From Sphingomonas sp. 32-66-10 (lineage in GTDB: Bacteria; Pseudomonadota; Alphaproteobacteria; Sphingomonadales; Sphingomonadaceae), in contig NCEF01000015.1 of assembly GCA_002280565.1 (NCBI GenBank), forward strand, positions 1 to 35,986: 35,986 nucleotides of DNA, read 5' to 3'. This document shows positions 27,600 through 35,986 of the stretch, piece after piece. Within the stretch, counting starts at the first letter, position 1. Every line of letters starts with the position of its first letter. The translations under genes were made by a program, and so were the position numbers. A model generated the notes under the pieces. It was not told the DNA's origin. It saw only the letters and a program-made list of their open reading frames with translations, and made no database searches.

Positions 27600-28055
27600 T
27601 TAGTCGGGATCGACCGGAATGTCGAAGTGCAACACGTCCTCACGCGCGCCCAATTTAGTGTAGAGCGCGATCGCGGGCGGATCGACATAATCGGCCTGGA
27701 CATAGATCACCCACGCCCCCGCCGACCGCGCGATCGGGCGCAGCGCGTCAATCAGCGCAGTGGCGATCCCGCGCCGCCGCTGGGCCTCCGCCACGGCGAG
27801 GTCGTAGATATAAATCTCGCTGCGCGCCTGTTCGAACTTGGGCAGGATATAGGCCGCGAGCGCGCCGACCATCGCGCCATCGGCCTCCGCCACCAGCGCA
27901 ATGAAATGGGGATTGGCGAGCAGCGCAGCGACATGATCGGGGCCAGGTGGCGCGGACAGATAATGCTCGTCATCCTCGAATTCGCGCGCGAACAGCGCGT
28001 TCATCGCGGCGAGCGCAGCGGCGTCATTCGGCCCGAGGCGGCGAATCTGCGACAT
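27600..28055 (-). CDS. GNAT acetyltransferase of the AAC(3)-I (aminoglycoside 3-N-acetyltransferase) type
   Basis: The product is 151 residues, one GNAT domain. The wording of the core is very close to the AAC(3)-I family as I know it: GALAAYILPKFEQARSEIYI, then YDLAVAEAQRRRGIATALI (acetyl-CoA loop RRRGIA), VIYVQADYVDPPAIALYTKLG and the C-terminal REDVLHFDI. AAC(3)-I enzymes acetylate gentamicin-class aminoglycosides, and known forms are mostly on integrons and plasmids. Here it is a chromosomal, GC-normal gene with no integron or IS signature around it. Activity on antibiotics is not shown; it may act on another amine. The start at 28055 has AAGGA about 8 bases upstream. Confidence 0.88.
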   Translation of the reverse strand: MSQIRRLGPNDAAALAAMNALFAREFEDDEHYLSAPPGPDHVAALLANPHFIALVAEADGAMVGALAAYILPKFEQARSEIYIYDLAVAEAQRRRGIATALIDALRPIARSAGAWVIYVQADYVDPPAIALYTKLGAREDVLHFDIPVDPD

Positions 28056-33924: not shown

Positions 33925-34000
33925 GCGCAGGGTCAGCATCGGGATGCGACAGACTTTGCTATAGTGGATTGACCAAAGGGTATCGCGGGTGGGGACGAGC

Positions 34001-34948
34001 ATGCGTTTTCTGAACAAGAGTGCGGCGATGGCGGTGGTGCTGGCGGGGATGGCGTCGCTCGCCATGCCGGTGGCGGCACAGACCAGCCGCGACGGGATCG
34101 AAGGCCGGGTCGATCGGCTCGAGCGCGAGATGCGCGCGGTGCAGCGCAAGGTATTTCCCGGCGGCGCGGGCCAGACGGTCGAGCCGCAGATCACCGCTCC
34201 CGACCGCAGTGGCCCCGCTCCCGGCACTCCGGCGAGTGGCGTGGTCACCGACCTCACCGCCCGCGTCAACGCAGTTGAATCGCAGCTGTCGACGCTGACC
34301 GGCCAGATCGAGCAGAACCAGTATCGCCTGCGCCAGCTGGAGGAGGCATTCACCGCCTATAAGCGCTCGACCGATGCGCGCTTGAAGGCGCTGGAGGACG
34401 GCGCTTCGGCGGTCGGCGGTTCGGCCCCGGTCACCGGCATCGGCTCGACGCCGACGCCCGCCCCGCGCCCGACGACGCCGCGCCCGACCACGCCGACCAC
34501 CGGCACGTCGGCACCCACGACGCCGGTCGCGGGGGTCGAACGCCCCAGCACCGACGACGCGGCTGAGGACAGCTATGTCTATGGCTTCCGCCTGTGGCAG
34601 GCGAAGCAATATGACAAGGCGATCGTCGAGTTGCGCAGCGTGGTGCAAAAACACCCCAAGCATCGCCGCGCCAGCTATGCCCAGAATTTGCTCGGCCGCG
34701 CGCTGCTCGACCAGGGCAAGCCTGCGCTCGCCGCGACCGCCTTCTTCGAAAACTATCAGAAGATGCCCAATGGCGAGCGCGCGCCGGACTCGCTCTATTA
34801 CCTCGCGCAAGCGCTGGTGAAGATGAAGAAGCCGGCAAGCGAAGTCTGCAAGGTCTATGACGAGCTGACCCAGGTCTATGGCGACCGCCTCTCCGAAGCG
34901 ATGAAGATGGATGTCGCCACCGGCCGTTCCGCCAGCAAGTGCCGCTGA
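34001..34948 (+). CDS. cpoB: Tol-Pal-associated periplasmic protein, CpoB/YbgF-like
   Basis: The product is 315 residues. A signal peptide (about 1-28, ending VAAQ) is followed by a coiled coil (about 85-130) and a Pro/Thr-rich linker (about 148-185). The C-terminal TPR domain starts with DSYVYGFRLWQAKQYDKAIVELR and includes PDSLYYLAQALVKMKKPASEVCKVYDELTQVYG. CpoB coordinates Tol-Pal and peptidoglycan synthesis at division. The tol-pal genes are not in the window. A GTG at 33989 is an alternative start, but the ATG at 34001 gives the signal peptide. It overlaps the tilS start by 38 bases. Confidence 0.9.
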   Translation: MRFLNKSAAMAVVLAGMASLAMPVAAQTSRDGIEGRVDRLEREMRAVQRKVFPGGAGQTVEPQITAPDRSGPAPGTPASGVVTDLTARVNAVESQLSTLTGQIEQNQYRLRQLEEAFTAYKRSTDARLKALEDGASAVGGSAPVTGIGSTPTPAPRPTTPRPTTPTTGTSAPTTPVAGVERPSTDDAAEDSYVYGFRLWQAKQYDKAIVELRSVVQKHPKHRRASYAQNLLGRALLDQGKPALAATAFFENYQKMPNGERAPDSLYYLAQALVKMKKPASEVCKVYDELTQVYGDRLSEAMKMDVATGRSASKCR

Positions 34949-35799
34949 CGCGCTGAACCCGCCCGACCCGGTGTGGGTCGAGCGGTTTCGGGCGGATTTC
35001 GACCGGCTGTGTGTCGATGCCTATGACGGCACGTTTGCCGACGGTGTGCGGATTGCGCTCGCCGTTTCCGGCGGCGCGGACAGCATGGCGATGCTGCTGC
35101 TCGCCGGCGCCGCCTTTCCCGGTTGCGTGGTCGCGGCGACCGTCGATCATGGCTTGCGGCCCGAGGCGGCCGACGAAGCCGCGATGGTCGCACATGTCTG
35201 CTCACAATTGGGCGTGCACCACGTTACGCTCCGTCTGACCGAGCCAATCATCGGAAGCAGCATTCAGGGCCAGGCGCGCGAGGCGCGCTACGCTGCGCTG
35301 TTCGAGTGGATGCATCAGACCGACGCGTTCCTGTTGCTGACCGCACACCATGCCGATGATCAGGCGGAGACGATGGGTCGATGATCCGACCAACGTCGAT
35401 CCGCATCACGACCGCACCCGCTTTCGCGACCTGCTCGCCAGTCAGTCGCTGCTCGATCCGGTGGCACTGGCCCGGTCCGCTGAATATATCGCCCAAAGCA
35501 ACGACGCGCTCGAAGCCCTTGTCAGGGATCTGTGGCACCAACGCTGGGACGACCGAAGCCTGCAACTTCGGGCCAACAATCTGTCGCGCGAGGTACGGCG
35601 CCGCATGCTGCGTCGAGCGATCCAAGAAACACGGGAGCGCAATGGCATCGTGCTGCCCGTCTTTACCGACTCGACCAACATCGAATCCCTGCTCGATGCG
35701 CTGGATCGCGAGTCCGGTGCCACACAGGGGGGGGTGATGGTACAAGTCAGACGCGACATCTGGACCTTCCGCCCCGCCCCGCCGCGTCGATCACTCTGA
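34911..35799 (+). pseudogene. tilS: tRNA(Ile)-lysidine synthase TilS, disrupted by internal deletion and frameshift
   Basis: The first 157 codons (34911-35384) encode the PP-loop ATPase half: SGGADSM at 53-59, VDHGLRPEAADEA, and TAHHADDQAET at 144-154, then MGR and a stop at 35382-35384. In the +1 frame the protein resumes at about 35374 as RWVDDPTNVDPHHDRTRFRDLL and runs to a stop at 35799. That is the later TilS part, expected about 50-60 residues downstream. The conserved RGSG-x-x-GL block and the segment after it are missing. The join is around 35370-35376, so a deletion of perhaps 150-180 bases also shifts the frame. TilS makes the lysidine that lets tRNA-Ile read AUA and is essential in almost all bacteria. 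An assembly artefact, a second copy or real loss are possible. Confidence 0.78.
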
Positions 35800-35868
35800 T
35801 CGAAGCTGTTCCATTGCCATTAACCTGCGACCGCCTATCTTGTGCGCTGAGGAAGGTGCATTCGACCC

Positions 35869-35986
35869 ATGAGCGACGACAACAAGACCCCCGGCCCTGA
35901 GAATAACGGCAATCCGTGGATGAAGAGCCTGCTGGTGTGGGTGGGGATTCTCGCCGCGCTGGCGCTGTTCGTCAGCATGTTCGGCG
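35869..35986 (+). CDS. ftsH: ATP-dependent zinc metalloprotease FtsH, N-terminus (runs off the right edge)
   Basis: The first 39 codons are present. They start MSDDNKTPGPENNGNPWMKS, then a membrane segment LLVWVGILAALALFVSMFG. This is the usual start of alphaproteobacterial FtsH: a short charged cytoplasmic tail, then the first transmembrane helix. FtsH is the membrane AAA+ protease that degrades unfolded membrane proteins and regulatory proteins. TilS followed by FtsH is a conserved order, which supports the call although no AAA+ motif is in view. The interval 35800-35868 shows no gene and presumably carries its promoter. Confidence 0.85.
   Translation, partial: MSDDNKTPGPENNGNPWMKSLLVWVGILAALALFVSMFG

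Follow-up and report, generated by a model that had tools for sequence, protein, structure and literature searches.

The tilS gene near the 3' end of the DNA analysed here (hereafter the window, 35,986 nt) lacks an internal block and changes reading frame at the point of loss. We attribute this lesion to a local loss of sequence in the assembly at a contig end, with a probability of about 0.84, and in the organism itself the gene is most likely ordinary and intact. The window is the entire contig C37 of a draft genome of 2.68 Mb in 83 contigs, 83.3% complete. The features on which the argument is built, all on the plus strand, are as follows.

33989..34948, + strand: cpoB/ybgF-like gene in one open frame upstream of tilS (below-cut-off matches to NCBIfam tol_pal_ybgF and to PRK10803)
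34911..35375, + strand: tilS N-terminal part with the PP-loop SGGADS and HHADDQAETM (TIGR02432 and PF01171 matches, alignment of relatives, PDB)
35370..35378, + strand: junction in tilS (frame 3 homology to 35375, frame 1 homology from 35374)
35374..35799, + strand: tilS C-terminal part, from WVDDPTN to PAPPRRSL (open, with a stop where expected)
35869..35986, + strand: first 39 codons of ftsH, cut by the contig end (S. tagetis FtsH against this genome)

The lesion in tilS

The lesion is present in the sequence. The N-terminal part of TilS is encoded in an open reading frame of 157 aa at 34911-35384 (frame 3, terminator TGA at 35384), which carries the SGGxDS motif of the N-terminal PP-loop domain as VSGGADSMAM. 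TIGR02432 (lysidine_TilS_N) matches this frame over positions 1-116 of 189 with 94.0 bits (cut-off 93.6), and PF01171 over positions 2-113 of 182. Both family matches are cut at their 3' side, ending at QAETM, and the PDB entries 3a2k and 1ni5 match over the same residues.

The C-terminal part lies in an open reading frame of 149 aa at 35350-35799 (frame 1), with TilS homology starting from residue 9, the W of WVDDPTN at 35374. Taken alone, this frame has no Pfam or NCBIfam match at E 0.001; it is recognised by alignment with 18 hand-picked relatives, to which it is 28-54% identical up to the C-terminus, and it matches residues 205-345 of S. tagetis TilS at 48% identity. Both ends of TilS are therefore recognisable and in the expected order, as the original prediction had it, and the change of frame that it placed near 35370-35376 falls at 35374-35375, where the two homologies overlap by 2 nt and the reading passes from frame 3 to frame 1.

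Measured against the length most frequent among relatives, the net loss amounts to about 149 nt or 49-50 residues, close to the 50-60 residues first estimated. Because about 149 nt is not a multiple of three, the frame shifts as well. The missing residues comprise the R(A/G)SG..GL block and the RPLL.WRR..L segment, between QAET and DDP(S/T)N; both are absent after 35375 and present in the 18 aligned relatives, leaving the catalytic domain incomplete. The absent block had been described as RGSG-x-x-GL. Its absence holds, but that spelling is too narrow, as many relatives carry RASG, RGAG or RGCG instead.

No direct repeat of at least 9 nt that would explain a false join is present within 35301-35450; the lost sequence itself cannot be inspected. 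Third-position GC is rather low in both parts of tilS (0.76 and 0.72, against 0.71-0.90 across the 33 window open reading frames listed). The C-terminal part has no stop ahead of its conserved end and has a coding-like base composition (GC of 0.70, 0.48 and 0.72 at the three codon positions), so any lesion in the organism would have to be recent.

tilS and its neighbourhood in related genomes

We fetched 110 tilS loci of relatives, 30 from a PF01171 genome search and 80 from a second search; of the 18 relatives hand-picked for alignment, 7 come from the first set and 11 from the second. In every one of the 110 loci the open frame that holds the N-terminal part is 290 aa or longer; only in this genome is it cut. 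The C-terminal part was found in 57 of the 110 loci (E 0.001), always sharing the frame of the N-terminal part; at the same threshold it was not found in the other 53, in which it is either more diverged or lacking. All 18 picked relatives have both parts in one open frame, and the stretch from motif to motif measures 147 nt in 13 of them and 153-207 nt in the other five.

Across the 41 genomes of the PF01171 search, the match reaches position 180-181 of 182 without an internal stop in each of the 40 relatives and stops at 117 only in the genome studied here. TIGR02432 covers positions 1-187 of 189 of the S. tagetis protein with 164.6 bits, and through this protein the missing block aligns with the solved TilS structures 1ni5 and 3a2k. 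S. tagetis is the nearest relative by E-value in the search that yielded the 80 loci (66% over the N-terminal part); S. ginsenosidimutans reaches 67%, over a shorter stretch of the same part. No second genome of the same species appeared in that search, which may omit the records of this genome or very near ones.

Both window parts thus align with TilS, the tRNA(Ile2)-lysidine synthetase (TIGR02432, with a PF01171 domain; solved relatives 3a2k, 1ni5 and 1wy5), and the gene neighbourhood is shared with Sphingomonas TilS loci. Unlike known TilS, the window copy lacks about 50 residues between QAET and DDP(S/T)N and changes frame. The tilS ATG overlaps the 3' end of the cpoB/ybgF-like gene. Among the 110 loci, tilS is flanked by cpoB upstream and ftsH downstream in 57, by ftsH only in 26, by cpoB only in 10 and by neither in 17, counts drawn from loci that differ in length and kinship, some being too short to show both genes.

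Elsewhere in the window, positions 27600-28052 on the minus strand encode a putative aminoglycoside N-acetyltransferase, which matches the AAC(3)-I family model over its full length (218 bits, cut-off 200). The protein encoded at 1-435 on the minus strand is cut by the contig start and has no NCBIfam match; we take it to be KAP-type P-loop NTPase-like.

Missing sequence at the contig end

The contig ends at 35986, 118 bases into ftsH and 0.6 kb past the tilS junction. With S. tagetis FtsH (L060:4221-6179) as the query, the end of C37 accounts for residues 1-38 (87%), and a second contig, C29, for residues 88-652 from its first base onward (C29:1-1695, 93%). Read directly, C37 holds 39 ftsH codons and C29 opens at the codon for residue 88. 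Against TIGR01241 (cut-off 600), S. tagetis FtsH scores 861 bits and the part in C29 844 bits. Assuming the gene length of S. tagetis, about 48 codons or roughly 143 nt between the end of C37 and the start of C29 are in neither contig. Two stretches of about 145 nt are consequently absent within 1 kb, from the neighbouring conserved genes tilS and ftsH, on either side of a 0.6-kb end piece. FtsH is essential in some well-studied bacteria. Since the gene is in addition plainly in use, at 93% identity, the ftsH stretch is, judged from these comparisons, almost certainly missing from the assembly and not from the cell.

It is this break, with a missing piece of similar size only 0.6 kb away, that leads us to favour an assembly error for tilS, one of the ways out that the original prediction had offered. 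That both parts still look like a conserved gene and that AUA is still in use argue for an intact tilS in the organism. More specifically, about 149 nt of tilS would have been lost during draft assembly, where coverage or resolution was poor at the contig end. The final 0.6 kb (35374-35986) would then be a short fragment misjoined to the rest of the contig: on its tilS side a gap would have been wrongly closed, and on its ftsH side, ahead of C29, a gap of about 143 nt would have been left unbridged. We infer that both losses share one technical cause.

In the 18 relatives, the tilS block that is missing here stands out locally for its high GC content (mean 0.752 compared with 0.721 for the gene; mean local percentile 0.85), in keeping with poor coverage by short reads. 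The stretch of one relative that corresponds to the ftsH gap shows no such enrichment (0.604 compared with 0.619 around it), so GC content alone cannot account for both losses. Many putative bacterial pseudogenes stem from assembly errors, according to the available part of PMC11017572. The present case resembles such false pseudogenes in that a single defect interrupts a draft-genome gene that is conserved elsewhere along its length; the cases described there are frameshifts and internal stops, whereas here a loss of about 149 nt adjoins a contig end.

Breakage elsewhere in the draft was surveyed with 737 reference proteins from a relative (G020; 60 stretches of 20 kb) together with the tilS locus of that relative (L031) as a positive control. 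The target was 397,986 bases of the genome studied here, window included, in stretches mostly inside long contigs, with tilS at an end. Matches of at least 45% identity and at least 60% chained coverage were taken as comparable, which kept 78 and dropped 659; a gene damaged beyond the 60% coverage would fall among those dropped. Of these 78, 76 read in one frame and the tilS positive control was detected as broken. One further match in two frames traced to a wrong reference open reading frame, which we take to lie over ccmE/ccmF, and the region reads as two open frames here. One in-frame difference in length, in a presumably AmtB-like protein, was ordinary divergence. Broken genes in the other comparisons accordingly number 0 of 77 (comparisons, not necessarily 77 distinct genes), a result that argues against poor assembly quality overall and lends some weight to a real event.

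The need for TilS and the alternative explanations

That real event would be a genuine deletion of recent date, carried by the sampled strain or by much of the sampled population and tolerated because the anticodon of tRNA-Ile2 had changed from CAU to UAU, or else seen in carriers that are dying or in the minority. We consider it unlikely. Besides the survey, it can draw on the clean junction and on one precedent: in the available part of PMC10128029, tilS is called essential, the exception being a B. subtilis deletion suppressed by a change of tRNA-Ile2 from CAT to TAT. The same text names a few genomes with a natural tRNA-Ile2(TAT), and both situations amount to a named way of living without TilS. 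Yet the experiments described there favoured weaker TilS and selected no deletion or stop in tilS, and deletion attempts failed in E. coli and B. subtilis according to the available part of PMC12514573. Alternative wobble chemistry offers no way round: ava2C, another modification of tRNA-Ile2, is no substitute for TilS, as its formation is itself TilS-dependent in V. cholerae (PMC11938285, in the part available).

The rarity of AUA, at 15 of 22,890 aligned codons (68 proteins), would also suit a true deletion. Against it, AUA codons remain, and mostly at sites of Ile, Val or Leu (11 of 15): the residues opposite are Ile in 6 cases, Val in 3, Leu in 2, Met in 0 and others in 4. For comparison, ATC stands opposite Ile in 67% and ATT in 72% of cases, and ATG opposite Met in 64%. 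AUA therefore behaves as isoleucine, in what is a small sample. The two AUA codons singled out in the original prediction are present and in frame, at 1983-1985 (frame from the ATG at 1500) and 2253-2255 (frame from the ATG at 2169).

A suppressed deletion would further call for a UAU tRNA. The draft yielded 27 tRNA genes (RF00005 search, anticodons by ARAGORN), and tRNA-Ile(UAU), the form known from the bacteria with tRNA-Ile2(TAT), is not among them. Nor, however, is a CAU tRNA of any kind, initiator included: the 27 contain no tRNA for Met, initiator Met, Ile or Glu, and a set from an 83%-complete draft with such gaps is too incomplete to carry that comparison.

Patterns for CAU tRNAs, in which we take the GGGCC type to be tRNA-Ile2 and the GGCGG type to be elongator Met, matched 23 of 25 genomes without a mismatch (control pattern 0) and 39 of 41 with one mismatch (reversed control pattern, 6 matches in 5 genomes), the genome studied here being among the non-matching ones in both runs. 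With the one-mismatch pattern, a CAU tRNA of the tRNA-Ile2 type occurs in 39 of the 40 other genomes of the genus; it occurs in 35 of 35 genomes with a completeness of 90% or more and a contamination of 5% or less. Every locus of the one-mismatch run that was read (12 of 12) is a tRNA with CAT, and 5 of the 12 have tRNA-Pro(TGG) within the same 3 kb or less, a tRNA likewise absent from the 27 here. The absence of a CAU tRNA from this draft most likely reflects its incompleteness. ARAGORN labels the tRNA-Ile2-type genes in the relatives' loci L140-L181 as tRNA-Met(CAT); automatic tRNA lists would thus not reveal whether the TilS substrate is there.

The nearby contig break with its loss of similar size weighs against a true deletion as well, and the evidence does not support the claim that the organism itself carries a broken essential gene. 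It is more improbable still that a free-living Sphingomonas-like bacterium truly lost TilS very recently, keeps AUA and reads it through a changed tRNA-Ile2 or by other means within the unassembled part of its genome.

The window copy could instead be a dead one, with a working second tilS in the missing 17% of the genome; we give this very little credence. The draft is indeed incomplete, and in one relative (G013) a further, partial PP-loop match exceeds the cut-off (63.6 bits). However, in 40 of the 41 genomes searched, among them the one studied here, a single match clears the family cut-off. Moreover, the broken copy sits between cpoB and ftsH, as in 57 of the 110 relatives' loci, and its frames are open apart from the one junction. 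The other TilS suggested in the original prediction did not turn up in the 83%-complete assembly, where PF01171, local DNA and the whole TilS of a relative as queries retrieved only the two pieces in the window. The second match in the relative (G013:C52:20532-20792) spans PF01171 positions 2-92 and lies in a 199-aa open frame, in a genome that also has a normal tilS.

Finally, although both parts are open and conserved outside the gap, it is scarcely credible that their translation as two chains, or through a frameshift, yields a shortened enzyme that still works. The PP-loop domain lacks about 50 residues that no frameshift can restore, and this block is present in the 18 aligned relatives and aligns with 1ni5 and 3a2k.

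Loss of sequence during assembly is thus the reading we prefer: the lesion is most likely not in the organism, and a true recent deletion with a suppressor is far less favoured. The case calls for caution, in that an essential gene seemingly lost at a contig end should be checked against the reads and the neighbouring contig before it is interpreted. Were the deletion nevertheless true, it would extend natural life without lysidine beyond the few lineages with tRNA-Ile2(UAU) that are named in the literature consulted.
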